A stretch of DNA of 64,000 nucleotides from Geodermatophilus saharensis. Its GTDB lineage: Bacteria; Actinomycetota; Actinomycetes; Mycobacteriales; Geodermatophilaceae. A program made the position numbers and the translations under genes. Location of the stretch: positions 310,001-374,000 of the forward strand of contig NZ_FZOH01000004.1 of the NCBI RefSeq assembly GCF_900188205.1, given 5' to 3'. Shown here one piece after another: positions 5,377 through 33,000 of this stretch (positions are counted from its first letter, which is position 1; each line of letters starts with the position of its first letter). Below the pieces are notes generated by a model. The model made no database searches, was not told the origin of the DNA, and saw only the letters and a list, made by a program, of their open reading frames with translations.

Positions 5377-5758
5377 CAGGGGCCGGCATCGCGACGTCGG
5401 CACCTCCCGGGGTGCCAAGAGCACGACGAAGGCACCTCCCGGGGGTGCCAAGAGCACGACAAAGGCACCTCCCGGGGTGCCGACACCGCGACGGAGGCGC
5501 CCCCCGGTCGGGTGAGGTGTGACGGGCGACTCGCCCGCGCGGCGGCAGGATCGGCGGCCGCGTCTGGTTGAGTGGGGAGACCGGCGCCGCCCTCGCTCAT
5601 CCGGAGCTGCAGGACTCGACGTCGGGCTGGTGCAGCGCCACCGAGGCGCGCCCGGCTGTCCGACGTCGCCGCCGGCGCGCTCCGCCCCGTCTCCCGGGGC
5701 CGGCCTGCGCCCGCGCACGGCGACCGAGGACGGCGACCCGAGAACGCCCGAGGAACCG
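5377..5758. other. Gene-free stretch before the DEAD-box helicase: repeats then a probable 5' leader
   Basis: About 380 bases without a convincing gene. The first part (5388-5501) holds family-1 repeats. The rest (about 5510-5758) is GC-rich, has no good promoter I can identify, and may be a long untranslated leader of the helicase gene. The helicase frame happens to be open through it to 5519 but lacks helicase sequence there. No known leader RNA was recognised. Confidence 0.5.
5388..5501. repeat. Intergenic repeat family 1, three and a half units
   Basis: A partial unit (5388-5403) is followed by units at about 5411-5436, 5444-5469 and 5475-5501. The core is GGTGCCAAGAGCACGACAAA followed by GGCACC, spaced about 33 bases apart with CTCCCGGG between. 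The outer GGTGCC/GGCACC arms match the other clusters; the inner part has diverged. Confidence 0.82.
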
Positions 5759-7351
5759 ATGACCTCCCCGCAGTCCCCCGCTCCCGCCGGTCCCGCCCGG
5801 TCCCGCCGCCGTCGCGGCGGCCGCGGCCGCGGCACCGGCAGCAGCACCACCGCCCCCGCCGCCCAGCCGCAGCCGCAGCCGCAGTCCCAGCCGCAGCCGC
5901 AGCCGCGGGAGATCCCGGCCGGTGACGTCGCCACCGTGCTGCCCACCGACACGACCTTCGCCGAGCTCGGGGTGCCCGCCCCGCTGGTCGAGGTGCTCAC
6001 CGCCAGCGGCATCACCGCGCCGTTCCCCATCCAGGTCGCGACGCTGCCCGACTCCCTCGCCGGCCGCGACGTGCTCGGCCGCGGCCGCACCGGCTCGGGC
6101 AAGACCATCGCCTTCGCCCTGCCGCTGGTCTCCCGGCTGGCCGCCGCCACCACCCGCCGCCAGGCCCGCCGGCCGCGCGCGCTGGTGCTCGTCCCCACCC
6201 GCGAGCTGGCCAACCAGGTGCTGGCCACCGTCGAGCCGCTGGCCCGCGCCCTGGGCCTGCGCGCCACCACGGTGTTCGGCGGCGTCGGGCAGAACCCGCA
6301 GGTGCAGGCGCTGGCCGCCGGCGTCGACGTCGTCATCGCCTGCCCCGGCCGGCTCGAGGACCTCATCGGGCAGGGCCACGCCGACCTGTCCGCCGTCGAG
6401 GTCACCGTCCTCGACGAGGCCGACCACATGGCCGACCTGGGTTTCCTGCCCGGTGTCAAGCGGCTGCTGGACCGCACGCCGAAGGGCGGTCAGCGGCTGC
6501 TGTTCTCGGCCACGCTGGACAACGGCGTCGACGTGCTCGTCAAGCGCTACCTCGACCGCCCGGTGACCCACTCGGTCGACCCGGCCGTCGCGCCGGTGGC
6601 CACCATGACCCACCACGTGTTCCAGGTGTCGGCCGCCGACAAGGCCGAGGTCGTCCGCGAGCTCGCCTCGGGCCTGGGCCGCAGCGTGCTGTTCACCCGG
6701 ACCAAGCACCAGGCCAAGAAGCTCGCCAAGCAGCTCACCGCGGCCGGCGTCCCCGCCGTCGACCTGCACGGCAACCTCAGCCAGAACGCCCGCGAGCGCA
6801 ACCTCGAGGCGTTCAGCACCGGTGGCACGCGCGTGCTGTGCGCCACCGACATCGCCGCGCGCGGCATCCACGTCGACGACGTGGCGCTGGTCGTGCACGT
6901 CGACCCGCCGACCGAGCACAAGGCCTACCTGCACCGCTCGGGCCGCACCGCCCGCGCCGGTGCCGGCGGCACGGTGGTCACCCTGTCCACCCCCGACCAG
7001 CACGGCGAGGTGCGCACGCTGACCCGCCAGGCCGGCATCACGCCGGTCGTGACCGCGGTGCGCCCGGGCGCCGAGCAGATCACCGCGCTCGCCGGTCCGG
7101 CCGCGCCGTACGTCGAGCCCGCGCCCGCGCCGGAGCCCCAGCCGCAGGGCCAGGGCGGCGGCCGGCGTCGCCGCGGCGGCTCCGGCACCGTCGCGGCCGC
7201 GAAGACCCCCGCGGCGGCGACCGCCACGGCCGGCGGCCGCGGCTCCGCGCGCACCCCCGGCCCCGCGCGCACCCGCGCCGAGCTGGCCGCGCGGGCCGGC
7301 ACCCACTCGGCGGCGTCGTTCAGCGGCCGGTCGCGGCGCGGCGGCCGCTGA
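5759..7351 (+). CDS. DEAD-box RNA helicase
   Basis: A 530-residue ATP-dependent RNA helicase that unwinds or remodels RNA duplexes in ribosome assembly or mRNA decay. A basic N-terminus (RSRRRRGGRGRG) and a Gln/Pro repeat precede the core. Motifs in order: Q motif (PFPIQ), GRTGSGKT, PTRELANQ, CPGRL, the DEAD box (VLDEADHM), SAT, ATDIAARGIHVDDVA and HRSGRTARAG. The C-terminus is another low-complexity Arg/Gly/Ala tail, typical of RNA-binding extensions. The ATG at 5759 follows GAGGAACCG. It stands alone with a long upstream gap, which fits leader-level regulation such as cold induction, but nothing in the sequence proves that. Confidence 0.93.
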   Translation: MTSPQSPAPAGPARSRRRRGGRGRGTGSSTTAPAAQPQPQPQSQPQPQPREIPAGDVATVLPTDTTFAELGVPAPLVEVLTASGITAPFPIQVATLPDSLAGRDVLGRGRTGSGKTIAFALPLVSRLAAATTRRQARRPRALVLVPTRELANQVLATVEPLARALGLRATTVFGGVGQNPQVQALAAGVDVVIACPGRLEDLIGQGHADLSAVEVTVLDEADHMADLGFLPGVKRLLDRTPKGGQRLLFSATLDNGVDVLVKRYLDRPVTHSVDPAVAPVATMTHHVFQVSAADKAEVVRELASGLGRSVLFTRTKHQAKKLAKQLTAAGVPAVDLHGNLSQNARERNLEAFSTGGTRVLCATDIAARGIHVDDVALVVHVDPPTEHKAYLHRSGRTARAGAGGTVVTLSTPDQHGEVRTLTRQAGITPVVTAVRPGAEQITALAGPAAPYVEPAPAPEPQPQGQGGGRRRRGGSGTVAAAKTPAAATATAGGRGSARTPGPARTRAELAARAGTHSAASFSGRSRRGGR

Positions 7352-20498: not shown

Positions 20499-21790
20499 CA
20501 CACCGCGTGCGCCGCGGGCGGCACGTGCTCGTCGGGCCGCTCGAGGTGCAGCGGCTGCAGCGGCGTCGTCTCCTCGAGGTACAGGAAGGCGTCGTAGCGC
20601 TGCCCGAGCACGGTGGGCACGTAGTTGCCCCAGCGCTCCCGCTCGGGCCGGTACACCACGCCGATCGCCCGGTGCCCGAGCCGGCGGTCCAGCCAGCCGG
20701 GGCGCTCCCCGCGCGGGACGACGACCAGCGCGTCGCGGCCGAGCGCCTCGTGCAGCAGGTGCTCCAGGCTGCCCTCCCGGGCCGGTGGCACGACCATGCG
20801 CTCGATCTGCGCACCCCACTCGCGCCCGGCGACCACCCCGCCGCGGTGCCCGCCGAACCCGACCAGCACGACGTCGTCGGTCCCGTGCCGCTCCCGGAGC
20901 AGCTGGCCGACGGTGGTCATCCCGGCGTCGGCCATGTCGGTGGCGCGGGCGTCCCCGACGTGGGTGTTGTGCTCCCAGACGACCGCCCGCCGGCCGGTGT
21001 GTGCCAGCAGCCGGTCGAGGGTGTCGGCCATGTGCACGTCGCGGACGTTCCACGACTCCGCCGACCCCGCGAGCATCGACCGGTAGTAGCGCTCGGCCCC
21101 GGCGACGACGGCGGCGTTCTGCTCGGCGGCGAACCGTGCGTCGGGATCGGGGTCGCCCTGGTCGGTGGTGGCACCGCGCTCCTCGCACAGCCGCCGCAGC
21201 AGGTCCACGACGGTCTGCTCGCAGCCGGCCGGCGCCAGGCGGGTGGCGAAGGCGTACTCGGCGCCGTCCTCGCCGTAGGGCTCGAAGCAGCGCAGCGCCT
21301 GCACGGCGGCCTCGGCGTGGCCGGGCTCGTTCTCCCGCAGCCAGGACACCAGCTCCTGCATCGAGTCCCACAGGCTGTAGACGTCCAGGCCGTGGAAACC
21401 GACGCGGTCGGCCGCGGGCCGGGTGGCGTTGACGTCGCGCAGCCAGCGGCAGAAGTCGACGACGTCGTCGTTGGCCCACATCCACGTCGGCCAGCGGGAG
21501 ATCGCGTCCAGTGCGGTGCGCGGGTCGTCCTCGCCACCGGGGCGCAGCCGCACGCTCCGGTCGACCCGGGAGCAGTCGGGCCAGTCGCCCTCGACGGCGA
21601 CCAGGCCGAAGCCGTGCTCCTCGACCAGGCGGCGGGTCAGCGCCGCGCGCCAGGCGTAGTACTCGTGCGTGCCGTGGCTGGCCTCGCCGATCGCCACCAC
21701 CCGCGCGTCCCCGACCCGCGCGAGCAGCGGGTCGAGATCGGCGGCGTCGCGCAGCGGGAGGGCGAGCTCCCGGACGTCGTCGGCGTCCAT
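20498..21790 (-). CDS. Erythromycin esterase family protein
   Basis: A 430-residue member of the erythromycin-esterase superfamily (Ere/SucC-like). Marker motifs are VVAIGEASHGTHEYY near residue 32, AVEGDWPD, GFHGLDVYSLWDSM, VVWEHNTHVGDAR and VVPRGERPGWLD near the end. Most chromosomal members are not drug-resistance enzymes and their substrate is unknown, so I would not call it a resistance gene. It overlaps both neighbours by TGATG, linking it with a carboxylate-amine ligase and an esterase. Confidence 0.9.
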   Translation of the reverse strand: MDADDVRELALPLRDAADLDPLLARVGDARVVAIGEASHGTHEYYAWRAALTRRLVEEHGFGLVAVEGDWPDCSRVDRSVRLRPGGEDDPRTALDAISRWPTWMWANDDVVDFCRWLRDVNATRPAADRVGFHGLDVYSLWDSMQELVSWLRENEPGHAEAAVQALRCFEPYGEDGAEYAFATRLAPAGCEQTVVDLLRRLCEERGATTDQGDPDPDARFAAEQNAAVVAGAERYYRSMLAGSAESWNVRDVHMADTLDRLLAHTGRRAVVWEHNTHVGDARATDMADAGMTTVGQLLRERHGTDDVVLVGFGGHRGGVVAGREWGAQIERMVVPPAREGSLEHLLHEALGRDALVVVPRGERPGWLDRRLGHRAIGVVYRPERERWGNYVPTVLGQRYDAFLYLEETTPLQPLHLERPDEHVPPAAHAV

Positions 21791-25158: not shown

Positions 25159-25965
25159 TCACGGGCGGCGCCAGTCGTCGGAGGTCAGGTGGGAGCCGGC
25201 CATCGGCCCCATCTGCAGCATGCCGCCGTCGACGGCGTAGGACGCCCCGGTCACGTAGGACGCCTGCGGGGAGGCGAGGAACGCGACGACGGCGGCGACC
25301 TCGTGGGCGTCGCCCGGGCGGCCGACCGGGACGCCGGGCCGCTCGTGCCCGGGCGCGGTGGGGTCCTCGTCCTCCTGGCCGGTCATCGGGGTGGCTATCT
25401 CCCCCGGGGCGACGGCGTTCACGGTGATCCCGTGCTCGGCGAGCTCGATCGCGGCGACCCGCGTGAGCAGCCCCAGGCCGCCCTTGGCCGCGCAGTAGGC
25501 CGCCGCGCCCACCCGCGGCTGGTGCTCGTGGACGCTGGTGACGTTGACGATCCGCCCGCCCCGCCCGGCCGCGACCATCCGCCGGGCGGCCCGCTGCAGG
25601 CACAGGAACGCCGCGTCGAGGTCGGTGGCCAGCACCTCGCGCCAGGTCTCGTAGTCGGTGTCGAGGAGCAGGGTCGAGTGGCCGGTGCCGGCGTCGTTGA
25701 CGAGGACGTCGATGCCGCCGAGCGCGTCGGCGAGCTCGTCGACGACGTCGGCGGCCCGCGGCAGCTGCGTGAGGTCGACGTGGCGGACCTCCGCGCGCCG
25801 GCCGCGCGAGCGCACCTCCCCGGCGGTGGCCTGCGCGTCGGCCTCGTCGCGGTACCAGGTGATCCCCACGTCGCAGCCCTGCTCGGCGAGGGCGACGGCC
25901 ACCGCCTTCCCGATGCCCGACTCCGACCCCGTGACGACCGCGACGCGGCCCGCTGACTCCGTCAT
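25159..25965 (-). CDS. SDR family oxidoreductase
   Basis: A 268-residue classical short-chain dehydrogenase. The cofactor motif is TGSESGIG, with NDAGTG in place of the usual NNAG. The catalytic Ser lies in VTSVHEHQ and YCAAK gives the Tyr and Lys. YVTGASYAVDGGMLQ near the end is typical of glucose/3-oxoacyl-type SDRs. The ATG at 25965 was chosen over ATG 25974 and a longer leader to 26049; GGGGGG lies upstream. It converges on the GGDEF gene with only 16 bases between. Substrate unknown. Confidence 0.9.
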   Translation of the reverse strand: MTESAGRVAVVTGSESGIGKAVAVALAEQGCDVGITWYRDEADAQATAGEVRSRGRRAEVRHVDLTQLPRAADVVDELADALGGIDVLVNDAGTGHSTLLLDTDYETWREVLATDLDAAFLCLQRAARRMVAAGRGGRIVNVTSVHEHQPRVGAAAYCAAKGGLGLLTRVAAIELAEHGITVNAVAPGEIATPMTGQEDEDPTAPGHERPGVPVGRPGDAHEVAAVVAFLASPQASYVTGASYAVDGGMLQMGPMAGSHLTSDDWRRP

Positions 25966-26150
25966 GCCCCCCATGCTGGGGGCCGGCGCCGGTCCCCGCC
26001 GACCGACCGGTGACGCTGCGCAGTCCCGCGCTGACGGTCCGGCGTCCACGCCCGGACGTCCGCGAGGGTCGTGGCGGGCCGCCGGATCGCGGCCGACACT
26101 CGGGGAACTGACGCAGCACCCGTCAGCCCCCGCTGCACCGGGAGACGCTC

Positions 26151-28922
26151 CTGCCGCCCCAGACCTTCGGCCCCTACGAGCTCGACGAGCTGCTGGGTCA
26201 CGGCCGTTCGGGTGAGGTCCACCGCGCCTGGGACACCCGCCGGCACCGCACCGTCGCGCTCCGGATCCTGCTGCCGGAGCTCACCCGGGACGAGCGGTTC
26301 CGCGCGCGCTTCCTCCGCGACTGCGAGCGCGCCGCGCAGCTGGACGAGCCGCACGTCGTCGCGGTCCACGAGTTCGGCGAGATCGACGGCCGGCTCTACG
26401 TGGACACGCAGCTGGTCGACGGCCGGACGCTGGCCGCGGTGCTCGCCGCCGGAGGTCCGCTGCCGGCACACCTCGCCGTCGACGTCGTCGGGCAGCTCGC
26501 GGCCGCGCTGGACGCCGCGCACGCCCGCGGTCTGGTGCACCGCGACGTCGGGCCCGCCGAGGTCCTGCTGTCGGGGCGGACCGCCCACCCGGACTGCCAC
26601 CTCGACGGGTTCGGTGTCGCCGGGGCCCCCACCGGCGCGGACGCGGTGGCGATGCCGCGGTACGTGCCCCCCGAGCGCCTGACCGACCGGCTCGCCGACC
26701 ACCGGGTCGACGTCTACGCGCTGGCCTGCCTCCTGTACGAGGTGCTGACCGGCAGGCCGCCCTTCACCGCCGCCGACGCGCAGGAGCTGTGCGAGGCGCA
26801 CCTCCACCGGGAGCCGCCGCGGCCCACCGACGTGGTCGGCTCCCTCCCGCCGGGGCTCGACGCCGTCGTGGCCCGCGGCATGGCCAAGGACCCCGACCAG
26901 CGGTACGTGAGCGCCGGTGAGCTGGCGCGCGCCGCCCGCGCGGCGCTCGTGCCCGCCCCCGACACCGTGCCGGTGCGGGCCGTCCCCCCGCCGGCCGCCA
27001 CCGGCGGGACCGCGGGCGGTGCTCCGGCAGGCGGTGCTCCGGCAGGCGGTGCTCCGGCAGGCGGTGCTCCAGCGGGCGGTGCTCCGGCGGGCGGGACCGC
27101 GGCGGCCGTGCGCGGCCCCTCGGCCGACGTGGCGGGCGCACACCGCGCCCGGCACCGTGCCGCCGAACCGCCGCCGCGGCCACCCCGCCGCCGGGGCCTG
27201 GCCGCGGCGCTCGTCGCCGGGGCGGTCGCGCTGACCGCCGCCGGCGGGGTGGCGGCGGTCCGGCTGGCCTCCGACGGCTCCGACGCGACGGCGTCGACCC
27301 CGGTGGTGGTCGAGCCGGCCGACGACCCGGGCGAGGACCCCTTCGTCCCCGCGCCGCCGGGGACGGCCGACCCGGCGCAGCGGTCCGGCGACCCGGCACC
27401 CGCGGACGCCGGTCAGGACGGCGGGCCGCCCGCGGACGCCGCCGATCCACCGCCGGACACCGGGGACGCGGCGCCGGGCAGCGCCGGCTCCCCGGACGGA
27501 GCCGACGGTTCCGCGGGCACCGAGGGCTCCCCGCAGGACGGCGGGTCCGCGGGGACGACCCTCGAGCCCCCGTCGGGGACCGGTGGCGCCGGGGCGGGCG
27601 CCGACACGCCGGCCGAGGCGGCCGGCAGCCAGGCGCCGGACGGCTCCGCACCGGACGGCGCGGACCCCGACGGCGCGGACTCCGACGGCGCGGACCCCGA
27701 CGGCGCGGACCCCGACGGCGCGGGAGCCGGGGGCGCGGCCGCGGGCAGCCCGGTCGCCGGTGACCGGCCGGGCCTCTACGGCGGTCCCGGCGCCGAGGTC
27801 TGCGACGCCGAGGGGATGGCGGCGTTCCTCGCGGCCCACCCCGACCGCGCCGCCGCCTTCGCCGAGGTCGAGGGCATCCCGGCCGACGGGATCGACGAGC
27901 ACCTCGCGACGCTGACCCCGGTGGTGCTGCGCTTCGACACCGCCGTCACCAACCACGGCTTCGCCGACGGGCGTGCCGTGCCGTTCCAGTCGGTCCTGCG
28001 GGCCGGCACGGCGGTGCTGGTCGACGACTCGGGGGTCCCGCAGGTCCGGTGCCTGTGCGGCAACCCGCTGGAGCCGCCCGCCGCCCGCCCCTCCCCCGAC
28101 TACCAGGACCACGACGGCGAGCCCTGGCCGGGTCGTGCCCCCGACACGGTGGTCGTCGTGCAGCGCAGCCCCGCGCCGCTGCCCGCGCTGGTCCTCGTCG
28201 ACGACACGACCGGCACCGTGGTGGCCCGGCCCGTGGGTACCGCCGGCGGCGGGGACCGGCAGGTCGACGCCGGCCTGGCCGAGCAGGCCCTCCGCTTCGG
28301 CGGCGACACCACGCCGTCCCCTCCGGGCAGCGGGACCTCGTCGGCCGGCTCGTCGCCCGGGTCGTCGGCCGGGTCGTCGGCCGGGTCGTCGGCCGGGTCG
28401 TCGGCCGGGTCGTCGGCCGGGTCGTCGGCCGGGTCGTCGGCGTCGTCGTCCGGCGGTGACGGCCCTGCCGGTCCGTCCGGCGGCACGGTCACACCCGCGC
28501 CGGCCCCCGGGTCCGGTGCCCCTCCCGGCGGGGACGCACCGCGCCCGGGGAACCCCGCACCACCGGAGGCGCCGGCCGGGGAGGACCCGGTCGAGGAGGC
28601 GCCGCCCGCCGGGGAGCCGCCGGCCGAGCAGCCCCCGGCGGACGGACCCCCGGCCGAGGAGCCCCCGGCTGACGACCCCGCTGCCGAGGAGGCGCCGGTC
28701 CCGGCAGTGCCGCCGGCCGACGAGGCGCCACCGGCCGAGGAGGCGCCGGCCCCGGCAGCGCCGCCGGCCGACGAGCCGCCCGCCCGGGCGCCGGCTCCGG
28801 AGCCACCCGCCGCGCCACCGCCGGCCCGGGAGGAGGCCACGGTCGAGCCACCCGCCGCCGAGCCGCCCGTGGAGGACCCGCCTGCCGAGGAGGCGCCGGC
28901 TCCGGACCCGGGCGGCTCCTGA
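26151..28922 (+). CDS. Membrane pseudokinase with extracellular DUF6777-like domain, CTG start proposed
   Basis: A 923-residue protein if started at CTG 26151, which has GGGAG six bases upstream. No ATG or GTG exists in frame between a stop at 26109 and GTG 26400, which lies inside the kinase fold. Residues 6-260 follow the PknB fold: glycine loop GHGRSG at 16-21, then VALR with Arg38 in place of the catalytic Lys, HRDVGPAE (130-137) lacking the Lys and Asn, and LDGFG (151-155) with Gly in place of the DFG Asp. So catalysis is unlikely. GGAPA repeats lead to a transmembrane helix at about 349-371, then a Gly/Asp-rich stalk, a DUF6777-like domain (541-718, GLYGG, TNHGFADGR, VRCLCGNPL), an SSAG repeat and a Pro/Glu/Ala tail. 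Confidence 0.8.
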   Translation: MPPQTFGPYELDELLGHGRSGEVHRAWDTRRHRTVALRILLPELTRDERFRARFLRDCERAAQLDEPHVVAVHEFGEIDGRLYVDTQLVDGRTLAAVLAAGGPLPAHLAVDVVGQLAAALDAAHARGLVHRDVGPAEVLLSGRTAHPDCHLDGFGVAGAPTGADAVAMPRYVPPERLTDRLADHRVDVYALACLLYEVLTGRPPFTAADAQELCEAHLHREPPRPTDVVGSLPPGLDAVVARGMAKDPDQRYVSAGELARAARAALVPAPDTVPVRAVPPPAATGGTAGGAPAGGAPAGGAPAGGAPAGGAPAGGTAAAVRGPSADVAGAHRARHRAAEPPPRPPRRRGLAAALVAGAVALTAAGGVAAVRLASDGSDATASTPVVVEPADDPGEDPFVPAPPGTADPAQRSGDPAPADAGQDGGPPADAADPPPDTGDAAPGSAGSPDGADGSAGTEGSPQDGGSAGTTLEPPSGTGGAGAGADTPAEAAGSQAPDGSAPDGADPDGADSDGADPDGADPDGAGAGGAAAGSPVAGDRPGLYGGPGAEVCDAEGMAAFLAAHPDRAAAFAEVEGIPADGIDEHLATLTPVVLRFDTAVTNHGFADGRAVPFQSVLRAGTAVLVDDSGVPQVRCLCGNPLEPPAARPSPDYQDHDGEPWPGRAPDTVVVVQRSPAPLPALVLVDDTTGTVVARPVGTAGGGDRQVDAGLAEQALRFGGDTTPSPPGSGTSSAGSSPGSSAGSSAGSSAGSSAGSSAGSSAGSSASSSGGDGPAGPSGGTVTPAPAPGSGAPPGGDAPRPGNPAPPEAPAGEDPVEEAPPAGEPPAEQPPADGPPAEEPPADDPAAEEAPVPAVPPADEAPPAEEAPAPAAPPADEPPARAPAPEPPAAPPPAREEATVEPPAAEPPVEDPPAEEAPAPDPGGS
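27015..27092 (+). repeat. 15-bp coding repeat (GGAPA)
   Basis: Five copies of a 15-bp unit (GGCGGTGCTCCGGCA and close variants) in frame, encoding GGAPA in the cytoplasmic linker of the pseudokinase. Confidence 0.8.
28347..28442 (+). repeat. 12-bp coding minisatellite (SSAG)
   Basis: GGGTCGTCGGCC is repeated six times without change (28359-28430), with degenerate copies on each side. It encodes SSAG in the extracellular part of the pseudokinase. The unit keeps frame, so copy number can vary without breaking the gene. Confidence 0.88.
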
Positions 28923-28940: not shown

Positions 28941-29906
28941 TCAGCCGGCCGCGGCGGCGTAGCGGTCGGCGACCACGCGCAGCCGGGCGGTGAGCTCCGG
29001 CGGCGGGGACAGCACGGTGAACGGGGCGCCGGTCAGGCCCAGCGCGGCCACCGCCCAGTCGAGGTCGTCGCCCTCGATGTGCACCCGGCAGCCGTCGGGG
29101 CCGTCGTCGGTGACGGTGGCCCAGCGGCCGATCCGCCGGCGCACGTGGTCCCCGCCGGCGGCCACCCGCGCCTCGACGACGTACCGGGTCCACGCGCTGC
29201 CGATCCGCTCGCGCACGTAGGCCGCGGCGTCCTCGGCAGGGAAGCGGCGCGGCCCGAACACCGCGCCCGTGCCGCGCGGGGCGTGCAGCCGGTCGATCCG
29301 GAACACCCGCCAGTCGCCGCGGTCGAGGTCGTAGCCGACGAGGTACCAGCGGCGGCCCAGCGCCACGAGGCGGTGCGGCTCGACGGTCCGGTCCGCGCGC
29401 TCCCGGTCCGGCGCGGTGTAGCCGAAGGCGATCCGCTCGGTGTCGCGGCAGGCGAGGGCGACGGTGGTGAGGACGGCGGGGTCGACGGCGTCGGCGCCCG
29501 ACGACGGGGGCGCGCCGGCCGGCACCGTCACCGCGCGCAGCGCCTCGACGCGCGAGCGCAGCCGGCGGGGCATGACCTGCACCAGCTTGGCCAGCACCCG
29601 CACCGACGTCTCGGCCATGCCCGCGACCGGGCCCGCCGCGGCCGCCTGCAGCCCGACGGCGAGGGCGACGGCCTCGTCGTCGTCGAGCACGAGCGGCGGC
29701 AGCGCGGCACCGGGAGCCAGCGCGTACCCGCCGTCGACACCCCGGGATGCGTCGACCGGGTAGCCGAGCTCCCGCAGCCGCTCGACGTCGCGGCGCAGCG
29801 TGCGGACGGAGACGCCCAGCCGGTCGGCCAGGTCGGCGCCGGACCAGTGGCGGCGCGCCTGCAGCAGGGACAGCAGCCGGAGGCTGCGCACCGCGGGGTC
29901 GCTCAT
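28941..29906 (-). CDS. WYL-domain HTH transcriptional regulator (YafY type)
   Basis: A 321-residue regulator. Residues 1-60 are an HTH_11-type winged helix (SLLQARRHWSGADLADRLGVSVRTLRRDVERLRELGYPV). The WYL domain is about residues 140-230, with RWYLVGYDLDRGDWRVFRIDRL carrying the marker residues, and a WCX C-terminal part follows. These regulators sense a small ligand or nucleic acid. It is divergent from the DinB-type gene, and a perfect palindrome lies between them, so it probably controls both. The ATG at 29906 lies at the start of the HTH similarity. Confidence 0.92.
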   Translation of the reverse strand: MSDPAVRSLRLLSLLQARRHWSGADLADRLGVSVRTLRRDVERLRELGYPVDASRGVDGGYALAPGAALPPLVLDDDEAVALAVGLQAAAAGPVAGMAETSVRVLAKLVQVMPRRLRSRVEALRAVTVPAGAPPSSGADAVDPAVLTTVALACRDTERIAFGYTAPDRERADRTVEPHRLVALGRRWYLVGYDLDRGDWRVFRIDRLHAPRGTGAVFGPRRFPAEDAAAYVRERIGSAWTRYVVEARVAAGGDHVRRRIGRWATVTDDGPDGCRVHIEGDDLDWAVAALGLTGAPFTVLSPPPELTARLRVVADRYAAAAG

Positions 29907-29928
29907 GCCTCCATCCTCTCCGACACAG

Positions 29929-29945
29929 CGGTCAGGATCTGACCG
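29929..29945. promoter_or_regulatory. Operator palindrome CGGTCAG-GAT-CTGACCG
   Basis: Perfect 7-bp arms around three bases, placed between the divergent WYL regulator (29906) and DinB-type gene (30000). It is the natural binding site for the regulator. Confidence 0.7.
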
Positions 29946-29999
29946 CAATCACCGCGAGCATGGTCCTCACCAGCACGAACGAGACCCCGGAGGACCACC

Positions 30000-32434: not shown

Positions 32435-33000
32435 TCAGGCCGCCGCGGCCACCGCGGTCATGGGTGCCGGCCGGCCGAGCCGGACGCCGACGGCGGCGAC
32501 GACGCTGACCGCACCCAGCAGGGCCAGCGCGGCGCCGGGGCCGCCGAGGGCGCCGCTGACCGCGAGGACGGCCAGCGGGCAGACGAACTGGCCGACGAAC
32601 AGCGCCGAGGTCCACACCCCGGTGGCCCGGCCGCGCTGCTCGAAGGTCAGCGAGCCCAGCGCCCAGGAGAGCATCGAGGGCAGCAGCAGGCCGTTGCCCA
32701 GGCCGGTCACCACCGCGGCGACGACGACGGCGGGGACGGCGTCGGCGAACCCGAGGCCGAGCAGGCCGGCGCCGGAGAGGGCGAAGGCGGCAGGCACGGT
32801 CACCGCCGGGCCGAGCCGCGCCAGCCGGCCGAAGGAGAACGCCCCGACGGCGGTGCCCAGCGAGCCGATGGCGCTGATCGCCCCGATGGCGCCGGTGGAC
32901 TCCACGCCGATCGCGTCCAGCGTGAACGACAGCTCGACGACGAGGACGTAGAACACCAGGCCGGGAAGTGTCAGGACGCCGGCCCCGGAGCGGAGATCAC
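32435..33000 (-). pseudogene. Truncated MFS transporter, C-terminal half only
   Basis: The frame encodes about 185 residues that match the second half of an MFS protein: six hydrophobic helices beginning VLTLPGLVFYVLVVELSFTLDAIG, with FGRLARLGPAVTVP and FEQRGRATGVWTSALFVGQ loops. The first six helices are absent; upstream lies the end of a LysR gene. The only start codon (GTG at 32956) falls inside the first helix. A functional 12-helix carrier would need about 400 residues. This is a remnant left by a deletion whose junction is near 33000. Confidence 0.7.

Follow-up and report, generated by a model that had tools for sequence, protein, structure and literature searches.

A gene of Geodermatophilus saharensis was found to encode a kinase-fold domain without its catalytic residues, followed by a single transmembrane helix and a DUF6777 domain predicted to lie outside the cell. 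The gene occupies positions 26151 to 28922 of a 64,000-nucleotide stretch of contig NZ_FZOH01000004.1 (positions 310,001 to 374,000), which is called the window below. We call the product a receptor pseudokinase with a new ectodomain. Our best explanation, in which we have middling confidence, is that the protein serves as a non-catalytic co-receptor or decoy and acts by way of DUF6777 and of the N-lobe half of its kinase part. The domain order, the catalytic loss, the single origin, the common locus, the graded decay and the uneven constraint were all established by computation.

A profile search with the window protein gave matches to both Pkinase and DUF6777 above their cut-offs. Together with the alignment, eight orthologs and a fold model of high confidence, this bore out the original prediction of a transmembrane pseudokinase with an extracellular DUF6777 domain. 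Membership of DUF6777 (PF20568) was clear, with 187.7 bits against a cut-off of 27 and profile positions 3 to 163 of 163 covered. The kinase-fold domain was modelled by AlphaFold2 with a mean predicted local distance difference test score (pLDDT) of 91.9, and the profile match and the two-lobe model identify a Hanks-type Ser/Thr kinase fold. PknB, PknE and PknI were its best neighbours in the PDB according to Foldseek (E down to 3.6e-24). As the basic stretch PPRPPRRRG lies N-terminal of the helix, the predicted topology places the kinase part inside the cell and DUF6777 outside.

Four catalytic positions had been described as replaced (Arg38, Gly134, Glu137 and Gly153) next to a retained HRD motif, and all were found exactly so. 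The catalytic block aligned without gaps with the sisters and orthologs, so that no residue is merely shifted, a possibility that the original prediction had named as fatal to it. A register shift that would rescue the DFG motif by means of Asp152, one residue early, was also rejected because the block is ungapped and the orthologs have Thr or Ser at this position. The alpha-C Glu is replaced by Asp57, and the activation loop comprises 19 residues versus 23 to 28 in 16 intact DUF6777-fused kinases. Two of the three residues in the usual definition of a pseudokinase are lost (beta-3 Lys and DFG Asp), while the HRD Asp is kept. Judged by its residues, the protein would thus not qualify as an active Ser/Thr kinase, which has the beta-3 Lys, the HRD Asp, the +5 Asn and the DFG Asp.

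Among 25 DUF6777-fused Pkinase domains compared, a count that leaves out the truncated L089/L170 kinase, nine were dead and formed one group, while all 16 others were intact. As to whether pseudokinase and DUF6777 co-occur, they do so in the nine-member group and not in the other fused kinases. All nine pseudokinases lack the beta-3 Lys, the +2 Lys, the +5 Asn and the DFG Asp. At beta-3, five copies have Arg and four have Glu, while the position of the DFG Asp is occupied by Gly in eight and by His in one (Gly in seven and His in one of the orthologs). HRD is present in the window copy only; six copies have HGD, one HGE and one HGS. The activation loops measure 19, 14, 13, 13, 13, 6, 6, 6 and 6 residues, the lengths of 6 depending on the alignment of strongly shortened loops. 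The TxTG-like threonine pairs of most intact relatives are gone in all nine, and the loop of the window copy has one other Thr. Decay within the lineage is graded, and the window copy is the least decayed.

These comparisons bear on two other explanations. A slow but ordinary active kinase, or a set of sequencing errors, is very improbable: the window copy does keep HRD, but the same positions are lost in nine assemblies, and the 16 intact relatives serve as a model of an active member. Nucleotide binding or a non-phosphorylating catalysis, with Asp132 and the acid at +5 as new ligands in the way of SelO or SidJ, also appears improbable. SelO and SidJ are dead kinases with other activities according to a 2025 review of bacterial pseudokinases (PMC12599244). 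The window copy keeps three loop glycines and HRD, its Lys to Arg (Arg38) and Glu to Asp (Asp57) replacements preserve the charges at beta-3 and alpha-C, and in eight of the nine copies Asp or Glu stands in place of the +5 Asn. However, one ortholog has Glu and another Ser where the window copy has Asp132, four copies have Glu at beta-3, and none of the nine has the DFG Asp. As these positions vary or are lost across the group, they form no common new active site.

DUF6777 was present in 14 of 26 Geodermatophilus genomes, in 19 of 112 genomes of the family and in 49 of 394 sampled from the class. The pseudokinase gene occurred in 9 of the 26 Geodermatophilus genomes, in all nine at a common locus. 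At each of the eight orthologous loci it lies between the SDR and WYL genes, with counterparts of the window genes at 21790, 23173, 30000 and 30524 in the neighbourhood. A GGDEF gene was near six of the eight, as was the window gene at 32435. In genome G007, which has a close WYL gene, the SDR and WYL genes adjoin and no DUF6777 was found; the whole pseudokinase gene is absent there and was either lost or never gained.

In four of the nine genomes (G004, G006, G024 and G025) an intact DUF6777 kinase lies directly downstream on the same strand, while in the window no intact sister kinase lies between the pseudokinase gene and the WYL gene. A tree was calculated from 50 of 83 kinase-domain rows; every third separate kinase was retained, and three own-genome kinases were excluded, L011 and L014 because of a wrong reading frame and L013 because the required motif was missing. 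The nine pseudokinases formed one group (support 100/99) inside the DUF6777-fused kinases, so that they have a single origin as well as a shared locus. The four intact tandem partners were nearest to them, with a weak join (84/62). Since the partners group next to the pseudokinases, the pseudokinase most likely arose by gene duplication in Geodermatophilus. In the unrooted tree of flanking genes the four genomes with an intact partner formed one clade, so that an early duplication with losses and a later arrival of the partner are both possible. Genome G011 was placed with G006, G024 and G025 in the pseudokinase tree and next to the window in the flanking-gene tree, a conflict that may be due to recombination, convergence or a rate artefact. 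The intact tandem kinase of G. telluris (L084, 9402-11942, + strand) had synonymous distances (dS) of 0.59 and 0.56 to those of G006 and G025, with flanks at 0.17, and the intact tandem kinase of G004 had a dS of 0.17 to that of G006, below the 0.30 of the flanking genes. Judging from these distances, the intact tandem copy may have been exchanged between species.

Selection was estimated from ratios of nonsynonymous to synonymous change (dN/dS) by the NG86 method; no correction for base composition was made, and same-genome comparisons and neutral simulations were therefore relied on. Eight pseudokinase pairs and four tandem intact pairs were chosen by us, and G010-G012 was added as a non-tandem intact pair. 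For the kinase domain dN/dS was 0.23 to 0.70 in the pseudokinase pairs versus 0.12 to 0.23 in the tandem intact pairs. Bootstrapping of five same-genome comparisons put the pseudokinase ratio above that of the intact sister in 478 to 500 of 500 replicates. Flanking genes gave 0.16 to 0.26. DUF6777 ratios were alike in the pseudokinases (0.26 to 0.39) and the tandem sisters (0.30 to 0.54) and thus gave no sign of relaxation. Neutral simulations at equilibrium G+C contents of 0.5, 0.65, 0.8 and 0.9 had medians of 0.84, 1.01, 1.34 and 1.57 and 5% bounds of 0.61, 0.78, 1.03 and 1.02. All eight pseudokinase pairs lay under this bound at a G+C content of at least 0.65, and five of them at 0.5.

For an analysis of subregions, six intact pairs were computed and three non-overlapping pairs of each kind were pooled. 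Six of the nine pseudokinase genomes were represented in the pool. Of the three intact pairs pooled, two were not tandem sisters, and one included G111, which belongs to another genus of the family. Residues 2-150 of the pseudokinases had a pooled dN/dS of 0.47, made up of 0.49 (0.33-0.75) for residues 2-83 and 0.44 (0.29-0.65) for residues 84-150. Residues 176-265 had a ratio of 0.87 (0.59-1.28), which is compatible with neutrality and was above that of residues 2-150 in 998 of 1000 bootstraps; constraint was thus not found in every part of the kinase domain. The pooled intact relatives had 0.26 and 0.25 for the same two regions. Taken singly, seven of the eight pseudokinase pairs had ratios of 0.59 to 1.33 for residues 176-265, and G002-G003 had 0.13. 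On the whole, what is kept is the outer domain and the N-lobe half, and the ratios speak for a function still carried by the outer domain and by residues 2-150.

The arrangement of DUF6777 outside Geodermatophilus also bears on the function. In Streptomyces-type genomes (f21, an inferred assignment) DUF6777 is a separate gene. At 15 of 20 such loci, picked by us from the matches, a separate kinase lies in the same 6-12 kb stretch, where only about 0.05 kinases per 11.5 kb would be expected from the 42 to 49 kinase matches per 8.7 to 9.9 Mb in three such genomes. This company of DUF6777 and kinases was counted in favour of a co-receptor or decoy. The 15 separate kinases listed for these loci keep their catalytic residues. 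Of 78 named DUF6777 loci, 12 had a fused kinase and 26 a separate one; the other 40 had neither within the stretch examined, some of these stretches being short or cut.

The main rival, possible but less likely in our view, is that the kinase part is simply decaying, that the membrane-anchored DUF6777 alone is in use as in Streptomyces, and that the kinase fold is kept only so far as folding is not harmed. The near-neutral pooled ratio for residues 176-265, the stepwise shortening of the activation loop, the well-constrained DUF6777 and the frequency of DUF6777 loci without a fused or nearby kinase all agree with such a decay. Nevertheless, residues 2-83 and 84-150 are still constrained in the pooled pairs, and the kinase frame was lost in no copy, though open frames are easy to maintain at such a G+C content. 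Against decay stands G007 too, from which the gene is missing entirely.

As a co-receptor or decoy, the protein would have descended from a single-pass DUF6777-type receptor kinase in which the cytoplasmic part turned into a pseudokinase, most likely following the duplication. DUF6777, held on a stalk through the wall, would still bind an envelope or extracellular ligand or partner. The kinase-fold part would work without phosphotransfer and would pair, mainly by way of its N-lobe half, with other kinase domains: those of the intact DUF6777 sister where there is one, and otherwise those of another PknE/PknB-like kinase or of the protein itself. The likely effect would be to tune or block receptor-kinase signalling. 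The originally predicted non-catalytic sensor, with a ligand outside and a scaffold inside, would be compatible with the data; the lack of detectable constraint on residues 176-265 in the pooled pairs speaks against a scaffold in which the entire kinase surface is used.

Several observations weigh against a co-receptor or decoy. Since intact sisters occur in a single species clade only, they may be later arrivals rather than duplication partners. Five of the nine pseudokinase genomes have no tandem intact sister, so that a partnership with it is not needed everywhere, and the window genome encodes no other DUF6777 protein; it has 13 other kinases above the profile cut-off. The kinase part is only weakly constrained: at a simulated G+C content of 0.5, three of the eight pseudokinase pairs fall within the neutral range, and the intervals of two pairs reach 0.97 and 1.00. 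In the non-tandem intact pair G010-G012 the ratio was 0.40 for the kinase and 0.25 for DUF6777, so that the kinase ranges of intact and dead copies touch. The pair G002-G003, which is outside the pool, is well constrained over residues 176-265 (0.03/0.24). Finally, the dimer contact of PknB at Leu33 found no support. Leu33 is a residue of the PknB back-to-back dimer, and L33 mutant entries are among the PDB matches. It aligns with Arg31 of the window protein, and the known contact is therefore not conserved as such.

The DUF6777 domain itself was modelled with a pLDDT of 90.3, and no fold relative of the model was found in PDB or BFVD at E up to 0.001. A Cys pair had been noted in this domain. 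Cys634 and Cys636 are indeed strongly conserved, but the pair is incomplete, as Cys551 is conserved too. Cys551 and Cys634 are invariant in alignments of 33 and 73 sequences, and Cys551 is conserved to at least 90% in one of 44; Cys636 is invariant in the 33-sequence alignment and conserved to at least 90% in the other two. A search of a literature library found no paper naming DUF6777 and none combining Geodermatophilus and pseudokinase.

Pfam was run on 44 of 65 DUF6777 frames, namely the window, the Geodermatophilaceae and the other loci outside f21; L072 (masked bases) and 20 f21 frames were left out, and three L111 fragments were not counted. Pkinase was matched by 24 frames, TIR_2 by four and EAD1 by one, and DUF6777 was also seen on proteins without a recognised intracellular domain. 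The four TIR proteins (L076 8556-11738, - strand; L079 6554-9508, + strand; L100 5260-7971, + strand; L102 51-2639, - strand) have the TIR domain first, then a probable membrane stretch and then DUF6777. The fusion of EAD1 (54.3 bits, cut-off 24.2) to DUF6777 in L097 (5698-7743, + strand) is a possible link between a DUF6777 sensor and conflict-system adaptors. In L072 (6630-9698, + strand) and L088 (7101-9749, - strand) DUF6777 is fused to a stretch that resembles a kinase, has the motifs HGD...N and DFD and gave APH and ABC1 matches below the Pfam cut-offs; five neighbouring genes tested at these loci had no Pfam match. An ATP-binding cassette (ABC) exporter with two FHA stretches, an intact kinase and a DUF6777 protein are clustered in Streptomyces microflavus (L163 1739-5959, 7416-8807), which suggests a kinase-FHA-exporter pathway. 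In an actinomycetotal metagenome-assembled genome (L188 6537-9047, + strand) the kinase and DUF6777 are followed by an F5/8 type C match that is weak (23.2 bits against a cut-off of 28.2). The DUF6777 matches of L111 (about 5676-6132, - strand; genome G471) are split over three frames, possibly a broken copy or a sequencing artefact.

The reading frame of the window gene probably starts with CTG, as judged from the leader and the alignment. A TGA lies 14 codons upstream, with no ATG, GTG or TTG in between, and GGAG occurs 5-6 nt ahead of the CTG in all nine pseudokinase leaders. The intact relatives whose start region was inspected have GTG or ATG as the aligned start codon, some of these being read from the translation. 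The frames of all eight orthologs extend further upstream of the aligned CTG, and alternative starts are possible in three of them: two codons before the aligned CTG, an ATG in L085 and a TTG in L081, both close to GGAG, and in L074 an in-frame ATG 14 codons before the aligned CTG. An internal start at GTG 26400 is disfavoured because residues 2-83, which lie upstream of it, had dN/dS values of 0.16 to 0.75 in the eight pairs. A CTG start may lower the protein dose. All nine leaders have ACACTC about 50 nt before the CTG (extended to ACACTCG in eight; 26096-26102 in the window), perhaps a promoter or leader element. The features of the locus are listed in the table.

Table. Features of the pseudokinase gene and its flanks (positions in the window).
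Feature	Position	Strand	Basis
Whole pseudokinase-transmembrane-DUF6777 gene	26151..28922	+	open frame; 923 aa plus stop
Probable non-canonical CTG start	26151..26153	+	CTG aligned in 9/9 pseudokinases
GGGAG, Shine-Dalgarno-like, 6 nt before CTG	26140..26144	+	direct reading
Kinase-fold domain, residues 9-251	26175..26903	+	Pfam Pkinase 103.5 bits, cut-off 31.7
Arg38 replacing beta-3 Lys	26262..26264	+	alignment
Catalytic loop HRDVGPAE: HRD kept (130-132), Lys to Gly134 (+2), Asn to Glu137 (+5)	26538..26561	+	alignment
GFG replacing DFG (Gly153)	26607..26615	+	alignment
Juxtamembrane linker, Ala/Gly/Pro-rich, AGGAP repeats	26961..27185	+	composition, translation
Single transmembrane helix, residues 352-370	27204..27260	+	Kyte-Doolittle mean 2.04; basic residues precede
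Outer stalk, Ala/Gly/Asp/Pro-rich, PDGAD-type repeats	27261..27752	+	composition, translation
DUF6777 domain, residues 535-696, with Cys551, Cys634, Cys636	27753..28238	+	Pfam, model
C-terminal Ser/Gly repeat and Pro/Ala/Glu-rich tail	28239..28919	+	composition, translation
SDR gene, upstream flank, synteny conserved	25159..26049	-	profile match, locus comparison
WYL-domain regulator gene, downstream flank, synteny conserved	28941..29948	-	profile match, locus comparison

A wider proposal is put forward tentatively. DUF6777 may be the shared outer sensor of an unrecognised superfamily of actinobacterial receptors, in which an ectodomain of new fold is carried on a Ser/Thr kinase, an atypical kinase-like domain, TIR, EAD1 or no such domain, the kinase in the last case being encoded separately in the vicinity. 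The pseudokinase of Geodermatophilus would then be a dedicated non-catalytic co-receptor, kept by its N-lobe contacts and held at a low dose by the conserved CTG start. The pseudokinase lineage can be compared with intact sisters of the same architecture, at the same locus in four genomes, and includes intermediates of graded loss. It can thus be tested which surfaces of a kinase stay under selection once catalysis is lost, and the lineage could serve in studies of how dead kinases are put to new uses in bacteria. DUF6777 is a likely sensor domain common to kinases, TIR and EAD1 proteins.

Compared with known systems, the window protein does not belong to the PASTA receptor kinases (PknB/Stk1): NF033483 scored 215 bits against a cut-off of 450, over residues 9-272 only, and the Pfam scan of the protein gave no PASTA match. 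Its best NCBIfam match, StpK7 (NF052427), reached 269.2 bits against a cut-off of 900, over residues 4-267 only. EssB/YukC is a component of type VII secretion in Firmicutes and is not known to carry DUF6777. Like the window protein, it is a bacterial transmembrane pseudokinase, and it acts as a non-catalytic assembly part according to the review (PMC12599244).

The ActPs1-3, GLW, CP1, DYD and DLHK families are treated in the same source, from which the following descriptions are taken (PMC12599244). In ActPs1 all three catalytic residues are substituted, helix G is frequently lost and a PQQ domain is often present; the window protein keeps the HRD Asp and has no PQQ-type Pfam match. ActPs2 shares with it the beta-3 Lys to Arg replacement, the actinobacterial origin and a C-terminal membrane segment, but is defined by an HRD Asp to Asn replacement, a deletion of DFG and insertions of 32 and 250 residues, whereas the window protein has HRD, GFG, a short activation loop and no long insertion relative to PknE. 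ActPs3 is also actinobacterial, with a shortened activation loop and, in many members, a membrane part after the kinase. Its catalytic motifs are wholly lost and its activation loop carries a deletion, and its best-known member, MviN of Mycobacterium tuberculosis, is part of a membrane protein of peptidoglycan synthesis; in contrast, the window copy keeps HRD and its outer domain is DUF6777. Measured against these descriptions (PMC12599244), the window protein lacks defining features of ActPs1-3.

The best PDB sequence match of the kinase part was M. tuberculosis PknE (230 bits), which differs by the presence of the catalytic residues in the aligned chain. PknE is a single-pass receptor kinase with a different outer domain. 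The closest known relatives are the intact DUF6777-fused receptor kinases of Geodermatophilaceae and Pseudonocardia. These have the same order of parts and the same DUF6777 and are nearest in the kinase tree, but they carry all catalytic residues, a longer activation loop and, where the start region was inspected, a GTG or ATG start.

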